Shown in pieces: positions 1,042 to 48,289 of a DNA stretch of 61,364 nt. A program made the position numbers and the translations under genes. Each line of letters begins with the position of its first letter. The stretch's first letter is position 1. Source of the stretch: Labilibaculum manganireducens (lineage in GTDB: Bacteria > Bacteroidota > Bacteroidia > Bacteroidales > Marinifilaceae); contig NZ_MVDE01000030.1 in NCBI RefSeq assembly GCF_002843385.1, positions 1 through 61,364 of the forward strand. The letters run 5' to 3'. The notes beneath the pieces were generated by a model that had not been told where the DNA came from, searched no databases, and saw nothing but the letters and a program-made list of their open reading frames with translations.

Positions 1042-1161
1042 ATGTTTATAATTTTAAGTTTTTGCCATATAGCCTGTCCCGAACTTGTTTCGGGAGAACT
1101 TACCATGCACGGAATAATCATCTCCCTGTGTGTTAAAACACCTTTGGCATGGACGTTTCAT
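1042..1161 (-). repeat. Intercistronic repeat copy R1 (ends at start codon of the response regulator)
   Basis: On the minus strand the element begins ATGAAACGTCCATG and contains CACAGGGAGATGATTAT, GGTAAGTTC, the hairpin TCCCGAA-acaag-TTCGGGA and TATATGGCA. It ends TTAAAATTATAAACAT immediately before the response-regulator ATG. The first ATG overlaps the kinase stop codon as ATGA. Related copies lie at 32524-32708, 43504-43615 and 48097-48289. Confidence 0.8.
1054..1161 (-). CDS. Possible 35-aa leader ORF inside repeat R1
   Basis: An ATG overlapping the kinase TGA (as ATGA) opens a 35-codon frame starting MKRPCQRCF and ending at a TAA 12 nt before the response-regulator ATG. Repeat copy R2 has a 30-codon frame with the same beginning and the shared segment TQGDDY. 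Other copies carry frame changes (R3 and R6 give a 17-codon frame starting MKRPCIKLS) or early stops. Coding function is therefore doubtful; it may only couple translation between the two genes. Confidence 0.2.
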   Translation of the reverse strand: MKRPCQRCFNTQGDDYSVHGKFSRNKFGTGYMAKT

Positions 1162-2924
1162 ATTGATATTTTTACTAATGGAATTTTGCATTGTACCTTT
1201 AAACCATGAGGATATTCTTCCTCAAAAAATACATTTCCGCCCAATATGGAAATGCGTTCCTTAATATTTGATAAGCCGTTGCCGTTTTTAGGAATTCCAT
1301 TCAGAGGCAATCCAATACCATCATCTTTTATTTCGAAAAACAAGGAATCTGCTTTTTGCGCTAAGCAGATGTTGATATTTTTAGCTTGTGCGTGTTTAAT
1401 AATATTATTAGTTGCTTCCTGTGCAATTCGGTAGAGGTAGGTTTCTGCTTTCTTACTGATTTCAGGCAAGTCATCCTGAATCTGCAAATCAGTTTGTAAT
1501 AAGCTGTTTTCTTCAATTCGCTGCAACAGACTGCCAAGAGCATGATTCAATCCAAATTCCCGTAAAACGGCAGGCATTAAATCATTCGACATGCCCCTGA
1601 TCTCTGTCATTAAATCGGAAAACATTTCCTTCGATTCACCCAATACGGCAGCAGCATTTTCAGGAGCTGTATTTTCCAACCGCATTTTTATAGCCAAAAT
1701 TGTTTGAGCCAATCCATCGTGCAGTTCTCTGGCCAGTCTGCTTCGCTCAGCTTCCTGTCCATCTATCATCGATGAAATACTTTGGTCTTTGGCAATTTGA
1801 AGATTCTCCTGCTGTTCTTTTATTTTCTGAGTCATTTGGTTGAAAGCGGCCACCAATTCCATTATTTCGCCATCCGCTTTTATATCAGTAACCTGTTCAT
1901 AAATTCCCGATGAAATTTTCTCGGTTTCGGCCCGTAATTTTCGGATAGGAGCAGTTATGGTATTGGCAATTATGGCAACAACGCCCAACAGCAGCAAACT
2001 TAGAATAATCAGAATATAAAACATAGAGTTTCCGTAATTCCGAATGGGAATCATGGCTTCGTGTTGATCTATTTCAGCAAGAATCACCCAATTTAAATCT
2101 GGCAGATTCATTTTACTGTAAGAGCTTAGCACCTGAACGCCTCGGTAATCTTTAAAAATATCAGAACCAATACTATCCTGAAATGCCATTTTTACACCTC
2201 TGGTTGAGGATTTTAGGGCGTAAATTGAATTTTCCTGAAAGCGGCTCGTACTTCTCAGCAGATGATCTTCGCCTACCAGATAGGCTTCGCCGGATTTACC
2301 CAATCCGTTTAACGGATTTCTATCCAGCATAATGGAATTGATAATCTCTGTATTGATACCAAAAGCCAGAACCACCTTTTGCTCTTGAAAGATGATTGTT
2401 TTACAGATAAGAATTTCTGTTTTTGACTGATCTTTTGGGTTGAGCAGTTCCCGAACCGAAATTTCATTTTTAGGAAGCAGACGGGCAAACAACTGAAGAT
2501 GCTCAGGCTGTAATTTTGTTTGGCTCAGATCACCGGTTTTTGGCTCGATTTGGAAGCCCGAAGAAACGGTATTCGACTGATAGATGTAAATGCTTTTATA
2601 ATTTTGTTTGCCGGTAAGTAAGGAGGCAAAACCAGTTTTAAAAATACGGTGATCACTTATGAGATGGGAGAGATTCAGCTGACTTTTTTCAGGAGGGAGA
2701 CTGAATGTAAGAGTACTGATTGCTTCTGTTTCATGAATGCATTGCTGGAAAAAATCTTCAACGCGTTTTTTCTTTTCAATGCGAACGGAGGTAAGCTGGT
2801 TGAAAGTACGCAGAATAAGAGCATCTTTTGCCTGAGTATAGGCAAATATACCAACAATAAGTATTGATAATAAGTTGAGTACGACAAAGTAGATCAGGAG
2901 CTTGTTAGCTAAAGATTTTCTCAT
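1158..2924 (-). CDS. Membrane sensor histidine kinase, HisKA_3 type (NarX-like), 588 aa
   Basis: An N-terminal membrane segment (about residues 10-30) is followed by an extracytoplasmic Cache-like sensor region of about 270 residues, including GEAYLVGEDHLLRSTSRF and NWVILAEIDQHEA. A second membrane helix (about 300-325) and a HAMP domain follow. The HisKA_3 dimerisation helix carries the phospho-accepting His in RLARELHDG near residue 400. The ATPase domain shows EATNNIIKHAQA (N box), DDGIGL (G1) and NGNGLSNIKERI (G2). The gene precedes its response regulator. The ligand is unknown; Cache domains usually bind small organic molecules. Confidence 0.92.
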   Translation of the reverse strand: MRKSLANKLLIYFVVLNLLSILIVGIFAYTQAKDALILRTFNQLTSVRIEKKKRVEDFFQQCIHETEAISTLTFSLPPEKSQLNLSHLISDHRIFKTGFASLLTGKQNYKSIYIYQSNTVSSGFQIEPKTGDLSQTKLQPEHLQLFARLLPKNEISVRELLNPKDQSKTEILICKTIIFQEQKVVLAFGINTEIINSIMLDRNPLNGLGKSGEAYLVGEDHLLRSTSRFQENSIYALKSSTRGVKMAFQDSIGSDIFKDYRGVQVLSSYSKMNLPDLNWVILAEIDQHEAMIPIRNYGNSMFYILIILSLLLLGVVAIIANTITAPIRKLRAETEKISSGIYEQVTDIKADGEIMELVAAFNQMTQKIKEQQENLQIAKDQSISSMIDGQEAERSRLARELHDGLAQTILAIKMRLENTAPENAAAVLGESKEMFSDLMTEIRGMSNDLMPAVLREFGLNHALGSLLQRIEENSLLQTDLQIQDDLPEISKKAETYLYRIAQEATNNIIKHAQAKNINICLAQKADSLFFEIKDDGIGLPLNGIPKNGNGLSNIKERISILGGNVFFEEEYPHGLKVQCKIPLVKISI

Positions 2925-3280
2925 ACCGGTTTCCCTAAATTAGTGTGTTTGTTGCTGTCAAAGTTATTATTTCTTCTTAAATCAGGCTTTCGAAAACGAT
3001 TGTTTTATTGAGAGAAGTTATTTTTTATAATGAATCCACATTAAGCCGGGGTCAATTGTTACTTGTCTGAAGTATTGCTTTTTGTTCTTTAACCGCGGAA
3101 AGTAATTGTTTTAATTGAACCTGCTGGTAAGCAGCAAGCTTCGGTCAATTTCATGAAGTAATAGAAGCGTGTTAATTTGTTGTTTTTGATCCAGCAGGAA
3201 GGTTTTGCTTTCAGGAAATCCACTCATGACACGAATAATTTTCCACTGAAGTAAGTTGTTATCCACATGGCGACGATTAG

Positions 3281-3488
3281 ATTACTCTTTATACACAAAC
3301 ATTCGCTTTCCCAAGCAAGAGTTTGATTGCTTAAAATGGTAGAATTCACTACTTTAAATTTTGCATGCATTTCAAATTGAATCTTTCCCTTGAAAGGGGT
3401 ACCGTAACGCAGTGAAGATCATGAATGCAATTTTATATATCTTGTTGCCCTTGGTTTTTTCAGCCAACAAGGTATGTATAAAGAGTAG
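3281..3488. repeat. About 207-bp segment bounded by 13-bp inverted repeats
   Basis: TACTCTTTATACA near 3281 is matched in reverse complement (TGTATAAAGAGTA) near 3475. The interior holds 32-bp repeat copy 2 (3290-3321), a CCCTTGAAAGGG palindrome and no ORF. It may be a small non-autonomous mobile element or a chance pairing. Confidence 0.35.
3290..3321 (+). repeat. 32-bp repeat, copy 2
   Basis: This begins TATACACAAACATTCGCTTT and continues CCCAAGCAAGAG. It is the plus-strand partner of the minus-strand copy at 359-390. Confidence 0.6.
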
Positions 3489-3610
3489 CTTTAGGAGAGA
3501 TAGAGTTAGGTGATATGTATTCGATTGTTAGATTTTTCGACCTTTCAAAACTTTTTTACTTTTCAAGACTATTGCGAATCTTTTTTTAATTGAAAAAAAA
3601 TTCGTTACCT

Positions 3611-3640: not shown

Positions 3641-3659
3641 GAATCAAATTGGGGAAATT

Positions 3660-11627: not shown

Positions 11628-11984
11628 AACCTGCAGCGATATCATATGGAGTTTCATCAATGGGGAGTCTACTCTAAAATAAGCGGTTGAACGACTGAAA
11701 TTTTGGATTAAGATCGGGATTCGTTTTTGGGAAAGTGCAATTTCAAGAAATGAAGCCTTGTTTTATCACTTAAGATATTTATCATTACACAAATGTGCTT
11801 ACTTCTAGGTAAACCACGAGCTTGTTTTTGTGATCAGCAGATTTAAAAAAGAGAATCAGTAGTGCGCAAGAGCGGAGTGCTTATCCCGTTTTAGAATTAT
11901 GCTTACCGCAACTTTTTGCAGTGCTTACCGCAAAAAGTTGCAGTAGTGATTGCAAAAAGTTGCGGTAAGCATGAAATTTAAGGT
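11628..11984. other. Intergenic stretch between convergent thioredoxin and HU-like genes
   Basis: No ORF is supported. The notable content is the perfect 22-bp inverted repeat described separately at 11899-11972. Confidence 0.6.
11899..11972. repeat. Perfect 22-bp inverted repeat with a third internal copy
   Basis: ATGCTTACCGCAACTTTTTG plus CA (11899-11920) is exactly reverse-complemented at 11951-11972. The 30-nt loop contains a further partial copy, GCTTACCGCAAAAAGTTGCA. It lies just 3' of the HU-like gene, which is on the minus strand, so it may terminate that transcript. The repeated GCTTACCGCAA unit also looks like a repeat-expanded hairpin. Confidence 0.8.
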
Positions 11985-28840: not shown

Positions 28841-28860
28841 GGGATAGTTGGAGCTATCCC
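28841..28860 (+). terminator. Hairpin C1 in fecR-susC leader, locus C
   Basis: GGGATAG and CTATCCC form a 7-bp stem, preceded by an A run just as A1 is. Positional equivalent of A1, B1 and D1. Confidence 0.55.
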
Positions 28861-28871
28861 TCAAATTAACT

Positions 28872-28893
28872 GTTCATCCTTGGAGGGATGAAC
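28872..28893 (+). promoter_or_regulatory. Hairpin C2 in susC leader, locus C
   Basis: GTTCATCC and GGATGAAC form an 8-bp stem ending 26 nt before the susC start. Confidence 0.5.
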
Positions 28894-28919
28894 TATTGTT
28901 TAATCTTCATCACAAATTT

Positions 28920-31900
28920 ATGAAAAAAAAACTAACCCACCTTATTCCGAATTGGGATAGGGCAAAAACCCGACAGTGGCTTATGAGACTTACTGTATTA
29001 AAAATGATTTTGTTGATGAGTTTACTAACGACCTATGCGCGGGTAAATTCTCAAATGATCATTTCGAATTTAAAATTGGACGAAGTAGAACTCTCAGAGG
29101 CTTTGGAGAGAATTGAAGAATTGACAGATTACGATTTTGTATTCTCTTACGATGATGTAGAAGGTTACCAAGTATCGGTTGATTTGGAATCTGCAACATT
29201 GGAAGAATGTCTGAGTGATCTATTTCAAGAATTACCATTTACTTATACCACAGATGAAGATGTAGTAATTATAAGCTACAGAACACAGCAACCGGTTAAC
29301 GAAGCAGAACAAAAAAAGAAAGAGGTTAAAGGAAAGGTTACCGACGAAAATGGAGTTCCCTTGCCTGGAGTTTCTGTTGTTGTTAAGGGAACTACAAATG
29401 GTACAGCAACTGATGCAAATGGAGATTACCTTATTTCTTTTGAAAATGAAAATGCAGTACTGTTATTTTCATTTGTTGGAATGTTGCAGCAAGAGATCAC
29501 TTATAATGGGCAGACCGATTTAAAAATAGTTTTGAAATTTGATACCGCAAATTTGGATGAGGTTGTTGTTACAGGATATCAAGTGATTGATCGTAGAAAA
29601 CTGACAAGTGCAGTTACTTCTGTTAAAGCAGAAGATATTTTGGTAACAGGAGGGAATACTATTGATAAAATGCTTGAAGGACATATTTCAGGTATGGCTG
29701 TAAGTACAAATTCAGGAGAGGTTGGAGCTGTACCAAAAATACGAATCAGAGGAACTTCTACTTTGATTGGGAATCGTGAACCTTTGTGGGTTATCGATGG
29801 TATTGTTGTTTCTGATCCGGTAAAAATATCTCCGGAAGAGTTGAATGACCCTGATTACGTAAATCGCATTGGAAATGCTATTTCAGGCCTGAATCCACAG
29901 GATATCGCAAGAATCGATGTTTTAAAAGATGCTTCGGCTACAGCTTTGTATGGAACAAAAGCAGCCAATGGTGTAATTGTAATTTCTACTAAAAAGGGTC
30001 ATGCAGGAAAACCTGTTGTTTCCTTTAATACTAATAATAGTTATAAATTACGACCTCGTTATTCGAACCGCAATATTAATTTAATGACTGGCAAGGAAAG
30101 ATTAAATTTTTCCCGTGAACTTTTAAATGATAATTACGGGTATGCAAATAATGTATCCTGGGTAGGTTATGAAGGCGCATTGCGAAGCTTATATGCAGGA
30201 GAAATTGATTATAATGAATTTAACGACAAGGTCTCTTTGTTGAAGAATACAAATACCGACTGGTTTAAAGAATTGACTGAAGACTCATTTTCGTCAGACA
30301 ATACCGTTAGTGTTACAGGTGGAACAGATAATATCCGTTACTATTCTTCTTTTGGATACTCCAACAATAACGATGTTATTAAAGACAATACGAGCAAACG
30401 TTATACAGCTATTCTAAATTTAGATGTGAGATTTTCTCCTGCTTTTTCTACCTCATTTGCTTTTAATGCAAACAAAGGAAAGCGCAGGTATTATCAAGAT
30501 GAAATTTCTCCTGTTAATTATGCATACAATACAAGCCGGCTAATAGCTCCGGAAGACAATTACCTTATTAATGATGGTTTAGGGTATTATAAGTATAATA
30601 TATTAAATGAATTAGCCAACAGTGGCTGTAAACAGGAGAGTAATAATTCTACCTATCGTATCAATATGAATTTTTCTCCTAAAGATTGGTTGTCATTTAA
30701 TGGAATCTTTTCATATACACAATCCAATACTGATATCAATTCTTACTGGGGTGAGTCTACTTTTCATGCATCTGTATTGCGTAGAGCAGAAGTTGGTGAT
30801 AAAATAGATTCAGAGTCCAGTCAATTACCATTTGGAGGTGAATACACAATGAATCAAACCCGGAACAGTTCTTATACTGCACGTTTACAGAGTAATATTA
30901 ATAAATATTGGGGGGATTCAGAACAATATAATATCAATGCTTCTTTTGGTTTTGAAATGAACTCAGACAGGTATAAAGGCTATGAGAATACAACAAGAGG
31001 TTACTACCCGGAGCGGGGAATGCAGTTTGCCATAGTTGATCCAACTTTATATCCGGCCTATGCAAATTGGCAAAGTGCCAATTTACCTGTAGTAAGTGAT
31101 AACCTTTCTAATGTGCTTTCCTTCTATTCGAGTGTTTCCTATAGTTATAAAAATTTGTTTACCGTTAATGGTAATATGCGTTACGATGGGTCAAATAAAT
31201 TTGGAAGCAAAAGTAACGACAATCTTTTGCCAGTATGGTCGGCTTCGTTTTCATACAATCTGAATGAGCATTTGAAAAGTTTTACAGGAGTTTTTGATGA
31301 GTTGCTTTTGAAAAGTTCGTATGGCTATCAGGGAAACATGTTGAGTGGCCAATCACCGGAAATGATCATTTCAAAACAGCCATATGATACACATTACAAT
31401 GAATATGTATCGAAGATTTCTATATTTCCTAACGAGAATTTAAAATGGGAGCGTACGGGTTCCTTTAATTTAGGCTTGGAGTTTTCGATGTTTAACCGCA
31501 GGGTAATGGTAAGCAGCTCTTATTATCATAAAGAAACAAAAGACGCCTATATGCAAAAGAAGATATCCGGGGTGAATGGTTTGAGTTCGACTGTAGTAAA
31601 CGGGGGAGAGATTATTAACTCGGGTTATGATGTTTCAATTACCGCGATACCCGTAAAAACTGAAAATTTTAAATGGTACTTGTCTGCTTCAGGTTCCTAC
31701 ATGGATAATAAAGTAAATACACTTCCTTCTGCAGAACAATACGATTATACAGATTTTTTAAAAGGAACCGCAACGGTAAAAGGGAAATCGGTGAGTTCCT
31801 TTTATTCCTACGATTTTATTGGCTTAAACCCCAACGATGGAGGCCCAATGTTTAACGATTTGGAGGATAAGAAAGAAACTTTGTACGGAATCGACAATTA

Positions 31901-32510
31901 TGATGTGTACATGAAGGTGATGAAATCAAGCGGACGCAGAGAGCCTGTTGTTACAGGAGGTTTTAATACAACATTAGAGTATAAAAATTTGAGACTGAAT
32001 GCCAATTTTGCCTATAGTTTAGGGGCAAAGACCCGTCTTTTTCGTCTGTACAATCAAACAGGATCAGATATTAGGCCAGAGTACAATATCAATCGGGAAA
32101 TGCTTAACAGATGGCAGCACCCGGGTGATGAAAACGTGACAAGTATTCCTGCTGTTATCAATCCTAATTCGGATTCTTATTATGGTTATGCCAGTCATTG
32201 GTCAGGATTCACATCCGGGCAGGTTCCTACTATTGCCAATAGCTTGTGGGAGATGTATGATTATAGTGATTTACGTGTTGTGAGTGCCGATTATTTAAAA
32301 TGTTCAAGTCTGTCTTTAACGTATTCATTCCCGGAATCAACGATTTCACACTGGGCGCTATCCAGATTAGAAACCTCTTTCCTGGTTTCCAATCCATTTA
32401 TTCTTTGTTCCAATAAATTAAAAGGACAAACTCCAACACAAAGTGGATTTACTGATATTCAACTTTCAGAGCGTCCTGCATTTACTTTGAGCCTTAGTGT
32501 ATCATTCTAA
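28920..32510 (+). CDS. SusC/RagA-type TonB-dependent transporter with STN domain, locus C, 1196 aa
   Basis: I start at the ATG at 28920 (MKKKLTHLIPNWD). The frame is open 24 codons further upstream, but that part lies in the hairpin leader. The signal segment ends near TYARVNSQ. The STN domain has VELSEALERIEELTDYDFVFSYDD, the regulatory-like domain has ENGVPLPGVSVVVKGTTNG, and the plug has VLKDASATALYGTKAANGVIVI. The barrel ends RPAFTLSLSVSF. The gap to susD is 198 bp and is filled by two tandem repeat copies (R2, R3). It is a signalling transporter for the locus C sigma/FecR pair. Confidence 0.95.
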   Translation: MKKKLTHLIPNWDRAKTRQWLMRLTVLKMILLMSLLTTYARVNSQMIISNLKLDEVELSEALERIEELTDYDFVFSYDDVEGYQVSVDLESATLEECLSDLFQELPFTYTTDEDVVIISYRTQQPVNEAEQKKKEVKGKVTDENGVPLPGVSVVVKGTTNGTATDANGDYLISFENENAVLLFSFVGMLQQEITYNGQTDLKIVLKFDTANLDEVVVTGYQVIDRRKLTSAVTSVKAEDILVTGGNTIDKMLEGHISGMAVSTNSGEVGAVPKIRIRGTSTLIGNREPLWVIDGIVVSDPVKISPEELNDPDYVNRIGNAISGLNPQDIARIDVLKDASATALYGTKAANGVIVISTKKGHAGKPVVSFNTNNSYKLRPRYSNRNINLMTGKERLNFSRELLNDNYGYANNVSWVGYEGALRSLYAGEIDYNEFNDKVSLLKNTNTDWFKELTEDSFSSDNTVSVTGGTDNIRYYSSFGYSNNNDVIKDNTSKRYTAILNLDVRFSPAFSTSFAFNANKGKRRYYQDEISPVNYAYNTSRLIAPEDNYLINDGLGYYKYNILNELANSGCKQESNNSTYRINMNFSPKDWLSFNGIFSYTQSNTDINSYWGESTFHASVLRRAEVGDKIDSESSQLPFGGEYTMNQTRNSSYTARLQSNINKYWGDSEQYNINASFGFEMNSDRYKGYENTTRGYYPERGMQFAIVDPTLYPAYANWQSANLPVVSDNLSNVLSFYSSVSYSYKNLFTVNGNMRYDGSNKFGSKSNDNLLPVWSASFSYNLNEHLKSFTGVFDELLLKSSYGYQGNMLSGQSPEMIISKQPYDTHYNEYVSKISIFPNENLKWERTGSFNLGLEFSMFNRRVMVSSSYYHKETKDAYMQKKISGVNGLSSTVVNGGEIINSGYDVSITAIPVKTENFKWYLSASGSYMDNKVNTLPSAEQYDYTDFLKGTATVKGKSVSSFYSYDFIGLNPNDGGPMFNDLEDKKETLYGIDNYDVYMKVMKSSGRREPVVTGGFNTTLEYKNLRLNANFAYSLGAKTRLFRLYNQTGSDIRPEYNINREMLNRWQHPGDENVTSIPAVINPNSDSYYGYASHWSGFTSGQVPTIANSLWEMYDYSDLRVVSADYLKCSSLSLTYSFPESTISHWALSRLETSFLVSNPFILCSNKLKGQTPTQSGFTDIQLSERPAFTLSLSVSF

Positions 32511-32523
32511 AAACTTTACGATT

Positions 32524-32620
32524 ATGAAACGTCCATGCCAAAGCGATTTTGACACACAGGGAGATGATTATCTCAGCATGGTAAGTTCCATATGGCAATT
32601 AAAAAACAAATTATAATCAT
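32524..32620 (+). repeat. Intercistronic repeat copy R2
   Basis: Begins ATGAAACGTCCATG, carries ACACAGGGAGATGATTAT and GGTAAGTTCCATATGGCA, and ends TTATAATCAT, directly abutting R3. The TCCCGAA hairpin insert of R1 is absent here. It contains a 30-codon frame beginning MKRPCQSDF. Confidence 0.8.
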
Positions 32621-32708
32621 ATGAAACGTCCATGTATAAAGCTTTCTACACACAGAGAGATGATTATATGGTAAGTTCCATCTGACAAAAACTTAAAATT
32701 ATAAACAG
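32621..32708 (+). repeat. Intercistronic repeat copy R3 (ends at susD start codon, locus C)
   Basis: Begins ATGAAACGTCCATGTATAAA and ends TTAAAATTATAAACAG immediately before the susD ATG at 32709. Nearly identical to R6 (48201-48289) over the first 60 bp. The tail matches that of R1 rather than that of R2. Confidence 0.8.
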
Positions 32709-34250
32709 ATGAAAAAATATTTAATAATATTCCTCCTGTTTGCACTAGCCTCCTGTTCTGATTTTTTAGAGGAATACTCGCAGGATCAGGCATATGTTAC
32801 CGGGTACAACGATCTTGATGAATTGCTGTTGGGCAATGCATACATGAAACGCACCAATGTGCAATCTTATCAGTGGGGAGTTCGGGAAGGTCTTTATTAC
32901 CCTTATATACACTTTATGGCAGATGAAACCGAGCAATATTTAAATGGCAGTACTTATCTCTCTGAAGCCGCTTGTTTTACATTATATGGATATTCTAACT
33001 GGCAGCAAAAAGTAGAACGAAATCCTGATGGGGGCAATAGCTGGGACGATTCAGCAGATTGGAATAATTTATACAGTCATATCAATTCTTTGAATGTTAT
33101 TCTTTCATCTATTACTGATTTTAAAGGGACAACAGATGATGATATTTATAACATTAGCAGAATAAAAGGAGAGAGTTTATTTTTGCGGGCGGCATATTAT
33201 TTTGTGTTGACAAATCTTTTCGGAGAAGCCTACAATCCATCTTCTGCTGAAACTGCATTGGCAGTGCCATTAAAAACTACACCTTATATTGAAGATATTA
33301 CTTATACCCGAAGTACGCTTGCTGCGATGTATCAACTTATTGTTGACGATTTGCTGGAGGCTGAAAAGGCATTGGATGGTGTGGAGCACAAATCACTTTA
33401 TCGAGTTGACGTGAATGGGGTTCGATTACTGTTAAGCCGGGTTTACTTGTATATGCAGGATTATGAGAATGCTAAAATTTATGCTCAAAAAGTATTGGAT
33501 GTAAAAAGTTCTCTTCAGAATTTAAACACATTTTCGGGCGAAGAATTTTTAAATTCATCTTCTCCCGAACTGATTTTTTCCATGGGGGCAACATCAATTC
33601 CAGGAAATATTGCTGCAGGCACCTCTCTTTCTTCCAATAACTTTCAAATCTCTGCAGATTTGTACAATTCCTATGAGTCAGGAGATTTAAGAACAACATA
33701 TTACGTGGTAAAAGAAGGGCAAATTACATATCTAAAAAAGATGACAGGAACCGAATTTGAAACCAAAGATTTATCGGATAATTTTGTTCTCAGAACTTCA
33801 GAGGCTTACTTAAATTTGGCTGAATCTGCCGCTTTCTTGAATGATGACAATACGACAAAACAAGTTCTGAATGAATTAAGAAGCAATCGCTTTGCCAGTA
33901 ATTTGTATGATAATTCAAAAGTAAATAATCTTACGCATGACGAGTTAATTTATTTTATCAGGGATGAACGTCGCAGGGAGTTGTGTCTCGAAGGCCATCG
34001 TTGGTTTGATTTACGTCGATATAATGTTGTGCCGGAGTATCCGAACACCAAAACATTGACAGCATCGTATACATACTTTGAACAGGATCCAAATACTTAT
34101 AAGTATGTTCCTTCGGCAAAAAGATCATTTATTTTAGCTCCTAATGATCCGGCCTATACCTTGCCCATCCCTGAGTATGAAATTGAGTATAATAAGGGAA
34201 TGAAAGATAATGAGAGAGACGCCAGAGATGGTTTTTATGAAAGTTTATAA
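32709..34250 (+). CDS. SusD/RagB-type lipoprotein, locus C, 513 aa
   Basis: Lipoprotein signal MKKYLIIFLLFALASC. SusD core LRAAYYFVLTNLFGEAYNP; C-terminal motifs LNELRSNRF, IRDERRRELCLEGHRWFDLRRY and YTLPIPEYEIEYN. This is a typical full-length SusD. Translation starts exactly at the end of repeat R3. The next gene follows after 11 nt. Confidence 0.95.
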   Translation: MKKYLIIFLLFALASCSDFLEEYSQDQAYVTGYNDLDELLLGNAYMKRTNVQSYQWGVREGLYYPYIHFMADETEQYLNGSTYLSEAACFTLYGYSNWQQKVERNPDGGNSWDDSADWNNLYSHINSLNVILSSITDFKGTTDDDIYNISRIKGESLFLRAAYYFVLTNLFGEAYNPSSAETALAVPLKTTPYIEDITYTRSTLAAMYQLIVDDLLEAEKALDGVEHKSLYRVDVNGVRLLLSRVYLYMQDYENAKIYAQKVLDVKSSLQNLNTFSGEEFLNSSSPELIFSMGATSIPGNIAAGTSLSSNNFQISADLYNSYESGDLRTTYYVVKEGQITYLKKMTGTEFETKDLSDNFVLRTSEAYLNLAESAAFLNDDNTTKQVLNELRSNRFASNLYDNSKVNNLTHDELIYFIRDERRRELCLEGHRWFDLRRYNVVPEYPNTKTLTASYTYFEQDPNTYKYVPSAKRSFILAPNDPAYTLPIPEYEIEYNKGMKDNERDARDGFYESL

Positions 34251-39904: not shown

Positions 39905-39927
39905 CCATTGAGTTATGAAATCAATGG
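39905..39927 (+). promoter_or_regulatory. Hairpin D2 in susC leader, locus D
   Basis: CCATTGA and TCAATGG form a 7-bp stem ending 25 nt before the susC start. Confidence 0.5.
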
Positions 39928-39952
39928 CAGTATTAATCTAGACCATAAAGTT

Positions 39953-42900
39953 ATGAAAAAAAACTTGAAATGGCGGTGTTTATCACCCGCTGTTCGAAAA
40001 ACCCTGCTGGCTATGAAGCTAAGTTTACTATTAATGTTGGTTTGTACCTTGCAGCTTTCTGCATCGGTATCCCTCGGCCAACAAGTTAGTGTTCAATCCG
40101 GAGAATCTTCTGTGGGAAGTATTCTGGAAGATTTGAATCATCAAACCGGAAACATTTTCATGTATAATAAAGAAGATGTTGATGATCAGATATCCATTGA
40201 ATTGAACATGACCAATGGAAGTTTGGAAGAAGTTTTGGATGAAATCTGCAGGCAAACTCCTTTTAAATATGAGATTATCGATGAGTTTGTTGTAATTACC
40301 AGGAAGGCTCCGGTAACTGAGCCGGCAGTTGAGCAAGAGAAGAAAGAACTCAAAGGCAGGATTACTGATAAGGAAGGAGTTCCGTTGCCCGGAGTTTCGG
40401 TTGTTGTCAAAGGAACCAATACAGGTGTAGCCACCAATATTGATGGTGAGTACGTCATCAATATTGAAGATGAGAATACTGTATTGGTTTTTTCTTTTGT
40501 TGGGATGGTTCCGCAAGAAATTGCTTACAAGGGAAACGCAGACCTGAATGTAGTTTTGAACTATGATACGGCTAACTTGGACGAGGTTGTAGTAACAGGA
40601 TTTCAAACCATTTCTAAGGAGAGGGCAACCGGCTCTTTTGATATTATCAACAAAAAAGCTCTGGATAAGCCAAGCATGAGCTTGGCAACCCGCCTTGTTG
40701 GAACTACAGCAGGGATGAGATCTACTTTGGATAGGGACGGGAATGCAAAATTCGAGATTCGCGGACAAACCAGTTTTGAAACCAGTTCTTCTCCATTAGT
40801 TGTTGTGGATGGTTTCCCTGTAAAGGGGAATTTCAATTCGATCAATCCAAACGAAGTGGAATCGGTTTGTGTGCTTAAGGATGCTGCCGCTACTTCAATT
40901 TGGGGAGCAAGAGCTGCCAATGGGGTAATTGTTGTTACCACAAAGAAAGCCGGCAAAGATACCCCTCTTAGAGTTGAGTTCTCTTCTTTTCTTAAAATAG
41001 GGGCTGAATATGATATGGATTATTCAAACAATAAACCCTCTTCAGCCGAAACCATAGAATATGAACAGTATGCCTTTGATAAATGGGGGGCAAGAATGAT
41101 TGGCGACTCAGACAGTTGGAGTAATTTGTGTACTGCCAGAACTCCTGCTGTAACCTTACTAAGTGAGCATCGATTGGGGAAAATAAGCGATGAAGAATTG
41201 CAGGTAGGATTGAACCAGCTAAAAACCCTTGATAACCGTGGGCAAATACGTAAGTATATCTTGCAGAGACCCATTAGTCAGCAATACAATCTTTCCCTTT
41301 CCGGTTCAACTTCCCGGATGAGTAACCGATTGTCCTTACTTTACAATACCAGCCGACCTGCATTTAAAGGAAATGAATCGAAAGGGTATATGCTCAATTA
41401 TAATGTTTCAGCATCATTGGCCAAGTGGATCGATCTTGATATTAGTTCCATGATTCAGTATCAGGATAATGAGAATGGTGGTTTTAATGGAGGACATATC
41501 ACCAGTTTGGCACCGTATGAAATGTTGGTAAATCCTGATGGAAGTCATACAAATATTAGCAATAATTATTATGCTCCAAATATTGAAAGGCATGTACCAA
41601 CGGGTTCATTTCCCTATACAAACTGGGGATACAATCCAATCGATGAAGTTAACAGTACCAGTAAAACATCAAAAGATTTAAATGCCCGAATTCAGGCAGG
41701 ACTAAGCATTAAACTCTTTGAAGGGCTTAGATATTCCACCAAAATTCAGTACGAGCTTTACAATAACTGGAGAAAAGAGCACTATGGCGAGAATTCATTG
41801 TACGTTAGGTCTATGGTAAACCGAACTTCGTCGTGGGACAGAGAGACGGGTGAAATTGTTGCCAATCTGCCAAAAGGGGATATTTTGAAGCAGGATCGTT
41901 CAGAATCGAAAAATTACAATTTCCGGAATCAATTGGACTTTAGCAGAACATTTAACGAAGTGCATACGCTAAGCTTTTTAGCTGGAACCGAAATTAGTCA
42001 AACAAGAAGATTGGATTTTGATTATTCAACTACTTATGGTTATAACAATGAAACGTTAAACAGTGCTCCATTCCCCAATGGAACGGGGTATCCTAACCGA
42101 ATTTACGATTGGAGCGGATACAGTACCCAGTTTTATTATACAAATGCCTTTTCTGATGGCATTACCCGTTACTTTTCTTACTATGGAAATATGGGGTACT
42201 GCTACAAGAATCGTTACGACATTTCAGCCAGTTACCGTACCGATGCCTCCAATTTTATTAGTGATGATCCCAAATACCGCTATTCTCCGTTTTGGTCCGT
42301 TGGAGCAGGCTGGGTGTTGAGCGAGGAGTCTTTTATGTCGGATGTATCGTGGGTTGACAGACTTTCGGCGCGGGCAACTTTTGGATACAATGGGAATTCT
42401 GACAACTCTACTTCATTTAAACCTTTGGTTAGTGTTGGGAATCGTGATGCAGAGACCGGAGACTTATATGTTTTTATTTCAAGTAAGGGCAATCCTACTT
42501 TACGATGGGAGAAAACAGGAACACTGAACCTGGGTATCGATTATTCCTTATTTAAGGGAAAACTATACGGTAAGGTTGATATGTACAACAAACATGGGAA
42601 AGACATTTTAACTTATGTTAGTATTCCCAGTGTGAATGGATCCAGCCAGCAGAGGATGAATAATGCTGAAATGTTGAATCAAGGAATTGAATTCTCTTTT
42701 GGAACACATCAACAATTGACTAAAGATCTTACATGGAATGGGAATTTAAACTTTTCGTACAATAGAAACAAAGTGAAAAAGTTGTACATCGCTTCGTATA
42801 GCGGTTATGAATTAACCATTGGTTACGAAGTGGAAGGAGAGGATGCCAATTCGCTTTGGGTGTATAAGTATGCAGGCATCCAGAATATGGGTTCAGAGAC

Positions 42901-43492
42901 TTCCCCCAATATGCAACCCGTAATTCATGGTGTTGACGGAGCATTGTATCAAATAGGAGATTCTCGAAGCGAGAATGGGTTGGATTATTTGAAGAATGCG
43001 GGAACCAGAGTGCCTCCTTATACTTTAGGCTTTTCAAATAACTTTTCGTATAAAAACTTTGATTTGTCTTTTGTGTTTACGGGAGCATTTGGACATAAAT
43101 TTCTTCGTTCAGGCTTTAACTACCAAACTTCTTCGGGAAGAAACCTGCCCAATGGTTTCCTTTCTGATGTATTTGCCGATGGCAAGCCATTAAGAAATAC
43201 CGGAAAAATAGAATTGCCTTACGATGAAAATGACTATGATTACTATTACTGGCATAAAAATAACATGGACTATATGGTTGCCAACGCCTGGAATATTCGA
43301 TTGCAGGAGGTTAATTTAACTTATCAGCTGCCAAAAAGGATCATTTCAAACTTAAACCTGAGACGAGTGGTTGCTTATGTGCAGGCAAACAATCTTTTAA
43401 CACTAAAAGGAACAAAAGAGGATCCTGAATTCACCCGGGGAAGTCAGCGCTTACTGCCTTCCTATACATTTGGATTTAAGTTGGATTTTTAA
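39953..43492 (+). CDS. SusC/RagA-type TonB-dependent transporter with STN domain, locus D, 1179 aa
   Basis: I start at the ATG at 39953 (MKKNLKWRCLSPAVRK), where all four susC genes share the pattern A/G-TTATGAAAAA; the frame extends 15 codons upstream from a TTG inside hairpin D2. The signal segment ends near LSASVSLGQ. The STN domain has SSVGSILEDLNHQTGNIFMYNKED, the regulatory-like domain has KEGVPLPGVSVVVKGTNTG, and the plug has VLKDAAATSIWGARAANGVIVV. The barrel ends LPSYTFGFKLDF. IWGARAANG links it most closely to locus A. Confidence 0.95.
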   Translation: MKKNLKWRCLSPAVRKTLLAMKLSLLLMLVCTLQLSASVSLGQQVSVQSGESSVGSILEDLNHQTGNIFMYNKEDVDDQISIELNMTNGSLEEVLDEICRQTPFKYEIIDEFVVITRKAPVTEPAVEQEKKELKGRITDKEGVPLPGVSVVVKGTNTGVATNIDGEYVINIEDENTVLVFSFVGMVPQEIAYKGNADLNVVLNYDTANLDEVVVTGFQTISKERATGSFDIINKKALDKPSMSLATRLVGTTAGMRSTLDRDGNAKFEIRGQTSFETSSSPLVVVDGFPVKGNFNSINPNEVESVCVLKDAAATSIWGARAANGVIVVTTKKAGKDTPLRVEFSSFLKIGAEYDMDYSNNKPSSAETIEYEQYAFDKWGARMIGDSDSWSNLCTARTPAVTLLSEHRLGKISDEELQVGLNQLKTLDNRGQIRKYILQRPISQQYNLSLSGSTSRMSNRLSLLYNTSRPAFKGNESKGYMLNYNVSASLAKWIDLDISSMIQYQDNENGGFNGGHITSLAPYEMLVNPDGSHTNISNNYYAPNIERHVPTGSFPYTNWGYNPIDEVNSTSKTSKDLNARIQAGLSIKLFEGLRYSTKIQYELYNNWRKEHYGENSLYVRSMVNRTSSWDRETGEIVANLPKGDILKQDRSESKNYNFRNQLDFSRTFNEVHTLSFLAGTEISQTRRLDFDYSTTYGYNNETLNSAPFPNGTGYPNRIYDWSGYSTQFYYTNAFSDGITRYFSYYGNMGYCYKNRYDISASYRTDASNFISDDPKYRYSPFWSVGAGWVLSEESFMSDVSWVDRLSARATFGYNGNSDNSTSFKPLVSVGNRDAETGDLYVFISSKGNPTLRWEKTGTLNLGIDYSLFKGKLYGKVDMYNKHGKDILTYVSIPSVNGSSQQRMNNAEMLNQGIEFSFGTHQQLTKDLTWNGNLNFSYNRNKVKKLYIASYSGYELTIGYEVEGEDANSLWVYKYAGIQNMGSETSPNMQPVIHGVDGALYQIGDSRSENGLDYLKNAGTRVPPYTLGFSNNFSYKNFDLSFVFTGAFGHKFLRSGFNYQTSSGRNLPNGFLSDVFADGKPLRNTGKIELPYDENDYDYYYWHKNNMDYMVANAWNIRLQEVNLTYQLPKRIISNLNLRRVVAYVQANNLLTLKGTKEDPEFTRGSQRLLPSYTFGFKLDF

Positions 43493-43503
43493 AAGACAAT
43501 TAG

Positions 43504-43615
43504 TAAACGTACATGGTTAAAGCTTTTATACAGGCAGGGAGATGATGATAGGGGAAGTTCTTCCGAAACAAGTTCGGGGACAGGCTATATGGCTGAAACT
43601 TAAAATTATAAACTT
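43504..43615 (+). repeat. Intercistronic repeat copy R4 (ends at susD start codon, locus D)
   Basis: Diverged copy: AAACGTACATGG, CAGGGAGATGATGATA, GGAAGTTC, hairpin TCCGAA-acaag-TTCGGG, CAGGCTATATGGC and the tail CTTAAAATTATAAACTT just before the ATG at 43616. The initial ATG of the other copies is lost here. Confidence 0.75.
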
Positions 43616-45160
43616 ATGAAACTTAAAAATATATTATTTTGGAAGCTGGGAGTTCTTGTTGGCTCTTTGCTGTTATTTAGTTCGTGTGACGATTATTTAG
43701 ACGAGCAACCTTCAAAAGGTTCGGGAATCCCGATTTCTACCTATGAGCAGTTGAGTGGCATTCTTTCCCACTATTCTTCGTTTAATTCTGAAACAAATAT
43801 GGAATTGATTCTTGCCGGCGACAGCTATGAGGTAAGTACTGAATTGTATCAAGCCAATCCAGGTCAATTTAAGGATGATGTACTGAGTCAAAGTTTGTGG
43901 GAAGTTGAGAACCTTTACAATAGTTATTCAAATCAGGCATTGTGGGAGGGGGAGTTTGGCACGGTTTATAAGGCAAACTTAGTGCTTACCAATGTTGGAA
44001 ACGTATCCGGAACTACGGATCAGAAAGAGGAAATGAAAGCAGAAGCTCATTTGATGCGGGCTTACAGTTACTTTAGTCTTGCAAATACCTATTGTTTACC
44101 TTATAACGACAAAAATAAAAATGAAATGGGGCTTCCCATCAAAAAATCAACTTCGTATGAGGAAGACTTAAGCAGGGTTTCATTGGAAACTACGTATCAA
44201 TTTATTGAAGAAGATATTCAGGAAGCCTTAAAGCTAAAAATGAGTGCAACTGCCAAACGCAACTGGAGAGGGAATGTTGCCGCGGCAAATGGGTTGGCTG
44301 CACGTTTTTACCTGCTGAAAGGCGATTATACAAAAGCAATGACGCATGCAAATACCGCATTAGCTGATTACAGTGAATTGGTTGATTACAATACCGACAT
44401 GAGTTTTGAAAGTTACGAGGTAATAATAAACAGTTCTTCTGACAACTATGAATACATTTCTATAGATTATCCCTATACATGGGATATAAATACAGGTGCC
44501 GATGCATTATTGGTTGCGAACTATAAGGGAAATTATTACGACAGGGGTGTTTATAATGGCGGTGGAGATGGATGGTTTATTCCCAGTGCCAAATTGTTGG
44601 CCCTATACGATCAAACTTACGATTTGCGTTACAAGTATCATATCGTCGAAGATTTCTCCTATGAATATGGCATGGACGATCCGTCTTACAGTTATCCGGG
44701 CTATGTACAATGGTCCTATAAAATAAGTTCAAGTCCATGTTCAGCCGAAATGCTTTTAATTAAAGCCGAATGTTTGGCTCGTTTGGGTAATTTTACCGAA
44801 GCAATGAATGTGGTGAATCAATTGCGTGTAACACGATATAGTACTGAAACACCAGCAAATGTGTTAAATCTTACAGCAGCATCGAAACAAGAAGCCGTTA
44901 AATTGATTTTGGATGAGCGCCAGCGCGAAATGCCTTTTACACAACGTTGGTTCGACATTCGAAGATGCAACAGTAATAGTGATTCATTTGATAATATTGT
45001 TCTGGAAAAGAGATTTTACCCAGTTAATAAATTAGGACCTTTAACAAACGATCCGATTAAGACTTACAGATTGGAGCCGGGTTCGAGACGTTATGCTGTT
45101 CCAATTCCATCAGACGATATTGCAGCGGGCAGAGGGGTTATCAAGCAGAATACTTACTAA
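43616..45160 (+). CDS. SusD/RagB-type lipoprotein, locus D, 514 aa
   Basis: Lipoprotein signal ending LLLFSSC. SusD core AHLMRAYSYFSLANTYCLPYN; C-terminal motifs LIKAECLARLGN, VNQLRVTRY, LILDERQREMPFTQRWFDIRRCN and RRYAVPIPSDDI. Full length for the family. Translation begins exactly at the end of repeat R4, 123 bp after susC. Confidence 0.95.
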   Translation: MKLKNILFWKLGVLVGSLLLFSSCDDYLDEQPSKGSGIPISTYEQLSGILSHYSSFNSETNMELILAGDSYEVSTELYQANPGQFKDDVLSQSLWEVENLYNSYSNQALWEGEFGTVYKANLVLTNVGNVSGTTDQKEEMKAEAHLMRAYSYFSLANTYCLPYNDKNKNEMGLPIKKSTSYEEDLSRVSLETTYQFIEEDIQEALKLKMSATAKRNWRGNVAAANGLAARFYLLKGDYTKAMTHANTALADYSELVDYNTDMSFESYEVIINSSSDNYEYISIDYPYTWDINTGADALLVANYKGNYYDRGVYNGGGDGWFIPSAKLLALYDQTYDLRYKYHIVEDFSYEYGMDDPSYSYPGYVQWSYKISSSPCSAEMLLIKAECLARLGNFTEAMNVVNQLRVTRYSTETPANVLNLTAASKQEAVKLILDERQREMPFTQRWFDIRRCNSNSDSFDNIVLEKRFYPVNKLGPLTNDPIKTYRLEPGSRRYAVPIPSDDIAAGRGVIKQNTY

Positions 45161-45206: not shown

Positions 45207-45352
45207 GTGGAATCATTTTGCCTTAACTATACCTGCTTTTATTATCATAAAACAAAATTGTTTGCAATAATGTGCATGCCTGACATGAACAAATACAGAC
45301 GACTTATTTCATATAGTCGATAAAATGATAAAAATTTAAAATACTAAAACAG

Positions 45353-46696
45353 ATGAATCAATTTAAAATAGGATTACTGACAGCAATTGCAGCTGTTATG
45401 TTAGGATGTGTTTCCGAACAATCGAAACCAGTGAGACTTAGAGGACATGTTCCCGATTTGTATTACAAACTAGTTTCTTTTCAGAGTCAGAAAGGAGGCG
45501 GTTTGTACTATTCAAAAGACATAAATGTTAAGGTGAATGAGAAAGGAGATTTCGATACAACATTAGTTCTCGATCAGCCAGGATATTACAAAGCTTTCAG
45601 GAATATGGTATATCTCAGTCCTGGGGATGATCTTGAAATTCAATTTGATTTGGATCACAAAGAACAAACTCAATTTAAGGGAACAGGCTCACAGGCAAGC
45701 AATTATCTTATTCACCAAAACTTATCTTTTTTGGGAAAGAACGGAAAGAATGTGAAGTCTGATTTTTTGCAAACCAAGGCCGTTGTCGATTCTTTGGCAG
45801 ATATCCGGGGTAATGAGTTGAAAGAAATAAAGGGCTTGCCGGCATCTTTTGTAAAGGACGTACAACAGATAATTGTAGCGAAACAAATAGACGCGTATAT
45901 GAATCATTTTTATTTCACCGACTGTATCAATGTATATGATCTTCAGGAGTTTCGGGAGAAATTTGGACAGGGAGTTAAAAGTATCATGCCATCGATAAAT
46001 CCTTTGCTGACTAAATTATTATCTAAGGATGATTTGCTTCATGTGCCGGAGGTTTATTCTGCTGTAGATGATTGTGTTGAGTATGGAGACTTTAAGCTGA
46101 CAGCTTATCCAAAGTGGGACGAGTGTATCTCATTGAATCACTTCGAAAAGATGCTCGACGAAACTCAAGACATCACTCCGGCATTAGTAAAGGAAACCGA
46201 AAACAGGTTGGCATCTTTAAGCAATGAAGAATACAAAAACAGTCTTTCGAAACGAATGAAGCGTTTAAAAAAGTTTGTTAGCGGGGCACCTGTTTTCGAT
46301 TTACAACTAGAGGATGCAAATGGTAAAGATGTAAAACTAAGTGATTTTAAAGGCAAGTTGATCTACATCGATTTTTGGGCTACCTGGTGCGGACCTTGTC
46401 GGGACGAGCTGCCTTTTTATGGTAAGATAATCGAGAAGTTTAAAGGGAAGGATGTTGTGTTTCTTTCCATATCAGTAGATCAGGACAAGGAAAAATGGCA
46501 ATCGTTCATTCAAAAAGAAAATATTGGTTCTGCTCAACTCCTTTCAAAAGATATGGAGGCAATAAGTAAACAGTGGCAAGTAAACGGAATTCCTCGTTTT
46601 GTACTTGTTGGTAAGGATTTCACTTTTGTTGATGCGTTTGCTGATCGTCCGTCATCCGGCGAAGTTATCGAGAATAAAATAAATAGTTCATTATAA
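45353..46696 (+). CDS. TlpA-like lipoprotein thiol-disulfide oxidoreductase, locus D (first of three), 447 aa
   Basis: Lipoprotein signal LLTAIAAVMLGC. The N-terminal beta domain has FDTTLVLDQPGYYKAF and the motif VYLSPGDDLEIQFD. The roughly 170-residue helical middle is followed by a thioredoxin domain with LIYIDFWATWCGPCRDELPF and GIPRFVLVGKDFTFVDAFADRPSS. The genes at 46713 and 48290 share the same layout and the C-terminal DA.A.RPS pattern, so the three are tandem paralogues. They probably act at the periplasmic face of the outer membrane on the substrate of the locus D transporter, or on the transporter itself. Confidence 0.92.
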   Translation: MNQFKIGLLTAIAAVMLGCVSEQSKPVRLRGHVPDLYYKLVSFQSQKGGGLYYSKDINVKVNEKGDFDTTLVLDQPGYYKAFRNMVYLSPGDDLEIQFDLDHKEQTQFKGTGSQASNYLIHQNLSFLGKNGKNVKSDFLQTKAVVDSLADIRGNELKEIKGLPASFVKDVQQIIVAKQIDAYMNHFYFTDCINVYDLQEFREKFGQGVKSIMPSINPLLTKLLSKDDLLHVPEVYSAVDDCVEYGDFKLTAYPKWDECISLNHFEKMLDETQDITPALVKETENRLASLSNEEYKNSLSKRMKRLKKFVSGAPVFDLQLEDANGKDVKLSDFKGKLIYIDFWATWCGPCRDELPFYGKIIEKFKGKDVVFLSISVDQDKEKWQSFIQKENIGSAQLLSKDMEAISKQWQVNGIPRFVLVGKDFTFVDAFADRPSSGEVIENKINSSL

Positions 46697-46712
46697 TTTT
46701 AAATAGGAAAAA

Positions 46713-48059
46713 ATGGGAAGATATATTTTATTACTAGGAGTTTTTTTAAGTTTTTGCGTTCAGGTTTTTTCTGCTGATGTTCATGTACGAGGATATAATT
46801 TTTCTTCCTCGGATGGAAATATTACAATCCAAAAAGAAACTGCCGTTAATGAATTTAATCAAGAAGTAGAAAAAATTGTTCAGATCGATCAGGAAGGATT
46901 CTTTGAGGTGACCCTTCAGATTTCCAAACCTGAATTTTGGTCTGTTGAAGGAGCAAGCCTGTTTCTTGTGCCAGGCGAAAATCTGGATATAACATTTGAT
47001 AAGGGAACACACATTTATTCATTCAAAGGGAAAACAATGGATGAGTGTACTTTCTTATCAGCAAACAGGAATAACATTTATGTAGACCTTTCTTTTCTAG
47101 ATGGAGGGAAAAATGTAAGGGAATCTTTTGAAGAAACTAAAAAAGTAATTGATGCAATTGGCGCTGAAAAATTAAGTGCTCTCACCCAGACAGCGGGTTT
47201 AGATGAAAATTTTGTTAAGATTCAAATAAATTCTATTAAAGCCCATTGGGTGAATAGTTATCTGAACTACTACATGTTCTCAAAGGATTATGAACAAGAT
47301 GGTATGGGGAATGAGTATAAAACAGGATCAGGACGGAAATTTATTGAATCCATACGCGAATTGGTTGAGCCTGTGATTAAAGATGTTGTTGCTGATTCCT
47401 ATATAGATCTGTTCGACATACGTTGGGTTGTGGACAGATGTATGAAGGATGGTTTGACAAGTTTTCCGGAAAAATCAATTTGGGTGGAACTTTATACCGT
47501 TAAGAGTTTTTTGAAAAAGTTTCAAGACGGTGTTTCTTCCGAATTAATTAGTGAGGCTAGGGAAAGGCTTGCGACCCTAACCCGTGAAGATTTTGCTTTG
47601 ATTCTAAAACCTGCCATAGAAAAAGTAGAGATTCTTCAATCTGGTAAGCCTGCTATCGACTTAAGGCTGGAAGATGTTGACGGAAAAGAGGTGAATCTGA
47701 GTGATTATAAAGGGAAGTTGATTTATTTGGATTTCTGGGCCACATGGTGCGGACCTTGTAAAAAGGAGTATCCTTTTTTTATTAAGTTAAAGGAAAAATA
47801 CGAGGACGTGATTTTTATTTCAATTTCTACAGATAGAAAGCGAGAATCTTGGTTAAAGGCAATGCAAAGAAAAGAAAAAACAGATGTTCTTCAATACCAT
47901 GCCAGTAGAGAAAATACCTTATCTCAGTTAATCGAATGGAATATCAGCTTGATTCCCCGGTTTATTCTCATTGATAAAGATTTTAACATTGTAGATGCTT
48001 TTGCTCCCCGTCCTTCTGATGAGGGAATTGAACCATTGCTAAATAAGCTGTTAAATTAA
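46713..48059 (+). CDS. TlpA-like secreted thiol-disulfide oxidoreductase, locus D (second of three), 448 aa
   Basis: This one has a cleavable signal peptide (MGRYILLLGVFLSFCVQVFSA) rather than a lipobox, so it is probably soluble in the periplasm while its two tandem relatives are membrane-anchored. Thioredoxin domain with LIYLDFWATWCGPCKKEYPF and LIPRFILIDKDFNIVDAFAPRPS. It starts 16 nt after its neighbour. Confidence 0.92.
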   Translation: MGRYILLLGVFLSFCVQVFSADVHVRGYNFSSSDGNITIQKETAVNEFNQEVEKIVQIDQEGFFEVTLQISKPEFWSVEGASLFLVPGENLDITFDKGTHIYSFKGKTMDECTFLSANRNNIYVDLSFLDGGKNVRESFEETKKVIDAIGAEKLSALTQTAGLDENFVKIQINSIKAHWVNSYLNYYMFSKDYEQDGMGNEYKTGSGRKFIESIRELVEPVIKDVVADSYIDLFDIRWVVDRCMKDGLTSFPEKSIWVELYTVKSFLKKFQDGVSSELISEARERLATLTREDFALILKPAIEKVEILQSGKPAIDLRLEDVDGKEVNLSDYKGKLIYLDFWATWCGPCKKEYPFFIKLKEKYEDVIFISISTDRKRESWLKAMQRKEKTDVLQYHASRENTLSQLIEWNISLIPRFILIDKDFNIVDAFAPRPSDEGIEPLLNKLLN

Positions 48060-48096
48060 GAATTGCAATATAAATTTGAACAAAGGGGCATATAAT

Positions 48097-48200
48097 ATGA
48101 AACGTCCATGGCAAAGTAATTTTGACTCAGGAGCATGGTAAGTTCTCCCGAAACAAGTTCGGGACAGGCTATATGGCAAATAAAAACAAATAATAAACAT
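48097..48200 (+). repeat. Intercistronic repeat copy R5
   Basis: Begins ATGAAACGTCCATGG, includes the TCCCGAA-acaag-TTCGGGA hairpin and CAGGCTATATGGCA, lacks the GGAGATGATTAT block in full, and ends TAATAAACAT abutting R6. Confidence 0.8.
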
Positions 48201-48289
48201 ATGAAACGTCCATGTATAAAGCTTTCTACACACAGGGAGATGATTATATGGTAAGTTCCATATGGCAAATGAAAACAAATTATAATCAT
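48201..48289 (+). repeat. Intercistronic repeat copy R6 (ends at start codon of third TlpA-like gene)
   Basis: Begins ATGAAACGTCCATGTATAAA, contains CACAGGGAGATGATTATATG and GTAAGTTCCATATGGCA, and ends TTATAATCAT at the ATG at 48290. Nearly identical to R3 in the first 60 bp and to R2 in the tail. Confidence 0.8.

Follow-up and report, generated by a model that had tools for sequence, protein, structure and literature searches.

A short mobile repeat inserted at ATGAA start codons in Labilibaculum, best described as a PATE-like element

We analyzed a 61,364-nucleotide stretch of DNA from Labilibaculum manganireducens (NZ_MVDE01000030.1, positions 1 to 61,364; hereafter the window), which is the entire contig C30 of a 5.32 Mb genome (G000) of the genus Labilibaculum, phylum Bacteroidota. 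The window holds 6 of about 100 copies in this genome of a short repeat that a preliminary description, made from the sequence, had taken for an element inserting at translation starts. Comparison of filled and empty orthologous sites shows, with near certainty, that the repeat is mobile and that it inserts exactly at the pentanucleotide ATGAA. It is best described as a new PATE-like start-codon element, whose mechanism we infer from its ends. The explanation that we favor for the observations as a whole, and consider fairly probable, is a miniature non-autonomous mobile element that targets ATGAA and would move as single-stranded DNA.

The repeats occur in G000 far beyond chance. BLAST searches with two different units returned 59 and 67 matches, and ATGAAACGTCCATG was found with at most 2 mismatches at 154 places (78 exact), compared with 51 for the reversed control. 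By running nhmmer on fetched loci (NTGAA terminus, E <= 1e-3), we identified at least 98 distinct unit ends in G000, a lower bound because not all copies were fetched. The count leaves aside 11 hits, partly redundant, that lack a usable 3' end, L110 and L222 among them. Another 20 left-end matches were fetched and 19 read; L225 lies outside the search expression, and L215, L218, L222 and L224 appear damaged or diverged.

The insertion itself is visible in the comparison with related genomes. Orthologues of the genes downstream of 16 filled sites were found in the genus with the first 66 to 80 residues of the encoded proteins, and 77 loci were fetched from the congeners G002, G003, G004, G006 and G007 (G001, G005 and G008 were left out), two of them without a usable start. 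The 75 scored loci comprise 54 empty and 21 filled ones. Calls were automatic, with three loci set to empty by eye (C54:13619 in G002, G007 and G004, where an older unit-like stretch lies upstream; sites are named by contig and position), and some filled loci hold diverged units that nhmmer missed and that were recognized by eye. At nine of the 16 sites G000 carries an insertion that all five congeners lack (C2:96521, C9:122464, C51:17763, C2:260709, C63:314, C29:22754, C54:13619, C11:114723 and C51:9852), another five sites vary among the congeners, and at the last two every congener scored has a unit (C40:25836, with four loci, and C30:1039, with three). In G002, a copy lies upstream of the empty site at C9:122464, at a distance of some 70 bp. 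A conserved GTGAAACGAGCCATG-like stretch (GTAAAATGAGCCATG in G006) lies upstream of the empty site in the C54:13619 orthologues of G002, G006 and G007; it appears to be the decayed remnant of an older unit and has ceased to end at a start codon.

In an empty locus the native leader runs straight into ATGAA and the gene, while a filled locus reads native leader, ATGAA, element, ATGAA and gene; insertion at ATGAA, as first proposed, thus passes the direct test. At C2:96521, for example, the sequence is ...AAATAATTTAATCTT-ATGAATGACTT in each of the five congeners and ...AAATAATTTAGTCTT-ATGAA-element-ATGAATGACTT in G000. The 25 bases to the left of ATGAA share at least 24 identities with an empty congener at 10 of the 16 sites, and at the remaining six either the leaders are less alike or an empty congener is lacking. 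Six sites keep the native base at the left end and show the element's base before the ATGAA of the gene. Since the two bases differ there, the insertion boundary is exact and ATGAA alone is common to both ends, which rules out a target duplication longer than 5 bp. Because both ends have ATGAA in common, the start codon is restored by each insertion and tandem units share one ATGAA. The target reads ATGAA in 49 of the 51 automatically called empty loci, the other two being G004 loci with ATGAT and ATGAG.

Units are about 90-125 bp long and noncoding. In order from the left end, a unit has ATGAA, a stem (AAC/GTT and CCAT/ATGG in Labilibaculum) around a variable part and the conserved CACACAGGG-GATGATTAT, an optional hairpin CCCGAAACAAGTTCGGG, the internal guide CAT-N-TG (TAT-N-TG if the hairpin is present), an A/T-rich linker of about 20-27 bases and the right end CA-N'-ATGAA. 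The optional hairpin looks REP-like (REP, repetitive extragenic palindrome). In the last unit of the window, on the forward strand, these parts are the left-end ATGAA (antisense TTCAT) at 48201-48205; the left stem at 48205-48257, with AAC/GTT (48205-48207 with 48255-48257) and CCAT/ATGG (48210-48213 with 48248-48251) enclosing the variable part and the conserved CACACAGGGAGATGATTAT; the guide CATATG at 48259-48264, which is complementary to the right end; an A/T-rich linker at 48265-48286; and the right end CATATGAA at 48287-48294, whose ATGAA starts the downstream gene. The left stem was placed by eye as helices 1 and 2 of a covariance model. The linker becomes the leader directly upstream of the new start codon, and the earlier suggestion that the element supplies a new AT-rich initiation region is in this respect seen in the sequence.

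The guide and the right end co-vary. Of 89 parsed units of G000, 81 have an N that complements N', among them 14 of 14 with a non-A guide (C or G); 112 hits entered this parse, of which 18 lacked an end and, among the 94 parsed, 5 had no readable guide. In G004 and G006 together the complementarity holds in 82 of 93 pattern matches and in 25 of 31 non-A guides (counted by hand; one or two may be due to chance). None of 100,000 permutations attained either total. Of 16 distant loci inspected by eye, 14 have a guide complementary to the right end, and L385 and L392 do not. Base pairs were counted in 86 distinct units, where 8 pairs changed on both sides compared with 1.9 in shuffles, in an alignment fitted to the model's own structure, which favors pairs. 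Other classes of Bacteroidota have different arms that still match (AATGCCC/GGGCATT, AATACCC/GGGTATT, AACATCC/GGATGTT and AACGCCC/GGGCGTT, by eye). The AAC/GTT arms had suggested an integron attC site, a reading that we dropped in view of this variation of arm sequence across taxa. One co-varying stem is seen, beside the left end; at the right end, a hairpin arises solely by pairing with the guide.

The base before the left ATGAA follows the guide in part. In G000, T precedes 51 of 58 guide-A units not flagged as following another unit and none of 9 guide-G units; the flag is imperfect and missed at least four of the 58 and one of the 9, which do come after a unit. When congener units are added, T stands before 62 of 69 guide-A units compared with 7 of 32 guide-C/G units; T also precedes 12 of the 22 ATGAA starts of the window. 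A Watson-Crick rule for this base was rejected, as it holds for guide A and fails for guides C and G. In IS608 and ISDra2, too, the position that follows the target has a favored base (C after TTAC in about 70% and G after TTGAT in about 90%, respectively; PMC5934647).

The preliminary description had every cluster of copies stopping at a start codon. This is largely true of the genome: 26 of the 98 unit ends in G000 run directly into another unit, with which they share ATGAA (as had been seen for the inner tandem units), and among the 72 terminal ends, 57 open a reading frame of at least 60 amino acids (55 of at least 100) and 15 open only frames shorter than 60. These 15 are in part what the preliminary description had named as evidence against its reading. 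The downstream genes look functionally unrelated and include, judged from their translations, putative fabD, ispD, lpxB, proB and susD genes, among others. The actual target is the pentanucleotide ATGAA (antisense TTCAT) rather than the translation start as such, and starts are over-represented relative to the available noncoding ATGAA. In the window, 22 of 36 chosen open reading frames start with ATGAA and 54 noncoding ATGAA lie elsewhere than at starts, four of them inside elements; random use of the 22 + 50 sites would place 31% of the terminal ends at starts, and 79% are seen there. We tentatively read this excess as target sequence plus selection, possibly with some further preference.

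The layout of the ends matches that of IS200/IS605 ends, and on this match rests our proposal of an IS200/IS605-like single-strand mechanism, which we consider fairly probable and whose chemistry we infer. The element would move as single-stranded DNA of the antisense strand, in the order 5'-TTCAT, linker, guide, hairpin, TTCAT, flank, with the boundaries after each TTCAT. So read, it would have the layout of an IS200/IS605 or REP end: TTCAT would be the target, the guide would sit 5' of the foot of the hairpin and pair over the point of cleavage, and one base would be favored behind the target. A Y1 (HUH) transposase would act in trans. Copies may pile up at start codons because TTCAT is the antisense of the commonest gene start in the window, because insertion after TTCAT keeps the reading frame, and because selection would remove insertions within genes. 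When five antisense strands were folded as DNA, L379 showed exactly the two hairpins of this layout (z -3.57), and L381 (-3.30) and L035 (-2.56) also beat their shuffles.

Candidates for the enzyme are orphan Y1 proteins. Y1_Tnp genes number five in G000 and 2-10 per genome in the genus, 49 in total, and one unit stands about 0.9 kb from a Y1 gene in L330. Four of the G000 Y1 proteins have a signature near subclass 1.2 (DHIH, DHVH, DHLH or NHVH; WQ; Y..NQ..HH). Subclass 1.2 Y1 proteins are reported generally to lack insertion sequence ends, to have low copy number and to occur mostly in Bacteroidetes and Cyanobacteria (PMC6006769). We searched genomes with a profile (A3) built from an alignment of six subclass-1.2-like Y1 proteins. 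Within the family, where 20 of 24 element-bearing and 14 of 32 element-free genomes were covered, A3 matches at E <= 1e-25 occur in 20 of 20 element-bearing genomes and in 0 of 14 element-free ones (two of these near 1e-20), or 7 of 7 compared with 0 of 5 when split by genus. We treat this link as a lead, not as a result, and naming an orphan subclass-1.2-like Y1 protein as the mobilizer is doubtful at present. The G000 genes L125-L128 sit among other short hairpins and repeats, and L129 is RAYT-like with repeats of its own; these repeats, such as GAGCTTGCAGCTCG, CCTGAAAGGGC and GGTGCAGAGCACC, apparently belong to other REP-like families. In L331 (G001), TTCATATGG-linker-CATATGAA stands directly before the start of a Y1 transposase gene, like the right end of the element, with no full unit reported.

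Several observations weigh against a single-strand element moved in trans by such a protein. No transposase lies inside any unit read, and the units are too short to encode one; no longer autonomous copy was found among the copies read; and no unit ends were found by hidden Markov model (HMM) or motif search at any of the 32 Y1 loci examined, out of 49 in the genus. The predicted DNA folds are weak for L378 (z 0.52) and for the unit of the window (z -0.29). The base of the left flank is matched by the guide-A subfamily only, though the guide pairs with the right end, and a 5-bp target duplication is indistinguishable from an ATGAA carried by the element. The Y1 link at family level is confounded by relatedness and fails at phylum level, where A3 matches occur in 160 of 395 genomes; apart from G000, 4 of 6 element-bearing genomes have a match, compared with 155 of 388 others (P-value 0.23). 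G174 and G456 bear the element and have no A3 match at E <= 1e-15, and among 28 Y1 proteins compared, no group with more than 60% identity is present in all congeners.

The closest known systems are PATEs, IS200/IS605 elements and REPs. Like the PATEs (palindrome-associated transposable elements) of Haloquadratum, which are related to IS605-type transposons (PMC3119063), the element is short, noncoding and mobile, lacks terminal inverted repeats, has a near-terminal palindrome and a fixed target oligonucleotide, shows no target duplication, and has many copies and strain-specific insertions. An IS605-type transposon with matching ends, as for PATEs, was not found at 32 Y1 loci of the genus (HMM or motif search). 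What is new compared with PATEs is the start-codon ATGAA target, the extended, co-varying guide lying across the point of insertion, a main stem that is single where PATEs have two, and the exact head-to-tail arrays.

IS608 is reported to insert 3' of TTAC, to keep this target in its left flank and to read it by base pairing with a guide 5' of the hairpin foot (PMC5934647). The element resembles IS608 and ISDra2 (IS200/IS605; targets TTAC and TTGAT) in its short fixed target, here TTCAT on the antisense strand with no variable target duplication, in a guide placed 5' of a hairpin, for which co-variation bears out pairing at the right end while the left flank base follows it for guide A only, and in the base preference after the target (PMC5934647). 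It differs from IS200/IS605 in that it encodes neither the Y1 transposase TnpA nor TnpB, its guide pairing reaches three bases into the element, and a single stem seems to serve both ends. Like REPs with their RAYT (TnpAREP) and like CGTC-tagged REPs, which likewise lack a dedicated transposase (PMC8266576 and PMC3733652), it is a short structured repeat for which movement in trans by Y1 enzymes is presumed. As palindromes of 20-40 bp that lie mostly downstream of genes, REPs differ from the element, which is 90-125 bp long, has an exact boundary and lies upstream at start codons. We found no GTAG- or CGTC-tagged 20-40 bp palindrome near a RAYT that would class it with REPs: the RAYT-like gene L129 is flanked by other repeats, and other taxa have CGAG, TGCC, TACC or CATC in place of the CGTC present in the left arm of Labilibaculum. 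No description of such a start-codon element was found in the titles and abstract openings of the open-licence papers listed by searches aimed at it.

Among other explanations, a conventional miniature inverted-repeat transposable element, mobilized in trans by a DDE transposase that duplicates the specific 5-bp target ATGAA, would account for the direct ATGAA at both ends of nearly every unit and for the precise insertion. We consider it unlikely, as terminal inverted repeats do not extend beyond about 6 bases (by eye), and as it leaves unexplained both the co-variation of guide and right end and the guide-dependent base of the left flank. A duplicated target that is always ATGAA would also be unusual. 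A little less likely still is a leader that regulates at the RNA level, like a riboswitch or an attenuator, and that recombination would have spread and selection retained since its stem hides the start codon. Units are indeed co-directional with the gene and mostly at starts, the guide pairs with CA-N'-ATG and hence with the start codon, and the predicted probability that the start codon is unpaired averages 0.29 at the 16 filled G000 sites (by hand), compared with a spread of 0.01-0.86 at empty sites. However, the genes downstream look functionally unrelated, the 15 terminal copies without a gene and the nine insertions absent from five congeners do not fit a leader, and five bases of homology are too short for ordinary recombination.

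It is very improbable that the units are retro-element-like RNA copied by a group II intron reverse transcriptase. The window does end in a match to group II intron D1-D4 (Rfam RF02001, 125 bits; 61149-61321), and a guide pairing with the flank recalls the pairing of exon- and intron-binding sites; but no unit matches any Rfam model at gathering score, the intron being the sole match in the window, the units fall far below the length of an intron, and the partner of the guide is the right end and not the variable left flank. An ordinary conserved leader inherited with the genes can practically be dismissed, since only the two sites filled in every congener scored would suit it, and it is contradicted by the nine sites empty in all five congeners and by like units preceding unrelated genes.

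Mobile elements of this kind extend beyond G000. The right-end pattern CATNTGRCAN{8,26}CANATGAA has 57 matches in G000, 4 in G001, 87 in G002, 97 in G003, 35 in G004, 7 in G005, 58 in G006, 38 in G007 and 36 in G008, compared with 0-2 per genome for the controls in these nine genomes of the genus. The right end is also present in L. filiforme 59.16B, L. euxinus A4, Labilibaculum sp. K2S and two metagenome-derived genomes. With a covariance model (R1), we detected the element in 24 of 56 genomes of the family (9 of 9 in the genus, and 15 others with 1-10 copies) and in 7 of 395 sampled genomes of the phylum, G000 included; these counts are lower bounds, since filters were strict and 61 (family) or 8 (phylum) candidates were scored per genome. 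No match was found in viral contigs (searched with one exact pattern) or in plasmids and phages (searched with one unit each). In G003, which is L. filiforme-like, arrays of three or four units with a spacing of about 95-97 bp lie at C2:83176-83406, C2:341023-341344 and C10:17737-18033. The private right-end variants that units of an array have in common suggest local tandem amplification besides new insertion.

Mobile DNA usually damages its target. Here target and element end coincide at ATGAA, so that insertion at a start codon is frame-perfect and probably nearly harmless, and dozens of genes can have their 5' leader replaced by that of the element. Bacteroidota rely little on Shine-Dalgarno sequences. 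The filled and empty orthologues are natural before-and-after pairs in which the control of translation by leaders can be measured. If the guide model holds, the element would be a natural, very small insertion system directed by base pairing, and a possible substrate of the orphan subclass 1.2 Y1 proteins, for which no substrate was found described in the literature consulted. More speculatively, and on balance doubtfully, there may be a phylum-wide class of start-codon elements in Bacteroidota that pair across the insertion site through a guide of their own and for whose movement orphan subclass 1.2 Y1 proteins act in trans. Each insertion would then swap the leader of a gene, leave the protein untouched and spread one translation-initiation region over unrelated genes.

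All six units listed for the window in the preliminary description were read where it had placed them, each stopping at the next ATGAA, with one start shifted. On the reverse strand, a long unit with the optional hairpin (1042-1161) separates a histidine kinase gene (1158-2924) from a response regulator gene (394-1041). The other five are on the forward strand. A tandem pair of short units, 32524-32620 and 32621-32708 (the second with guide C, CATCTG, and right end CAGATG), lies between a SusC-like gene (28848-32510) and a SusD gene (32709-34250). The unit that had been given as 43504-43615 is present and reads from 43502 to 43615; it is long and decayed, with AGTAA as its left end where ATGAA would be expected, and has a SusC-like gene (39908-43492) before it and a SusD gene (43616-45160) after it. 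The last pair, between two thioredoxin/redoxin-like genes, consists of a long unit whose left half has an internal deletion (48097-48200) and a short unit (48201-48289), followed by a gene at 48290-49678. Pfam bears out the downstream genes that had been named: the response regulator, the two SusD and, for the TlpA-like gene, a thioredoxin/redoxin-like protein.

The stop codon TGA of the histidine kinase gene falls within the left ATGAA of unit 1042-1161 (1158-1161), and kinase and response regulator probably overlapped by ATGA before this unit inserted; all three orthologues fetched for this site (C30:1039) are filled, hence the overlap is not visible there. Between 20894 and 49410 there are several SusC-SusD sets, two SusC and two SusD being assigned by Pfam and others from reading only, and the thioredoxin-like frames share their CxxC region as DNA repeats (family D3 with 6 copies and D4 with 3). 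The group II intron match lies at the very end of the contig, which may break in a repeated intron. Finally, a 35-nt inverted repeat at 11899-11972 (ATGCTTACCGCAAC...), 86% complementary with a 4-nt loop, is made of smaller repeats and is unrelated to the unit.

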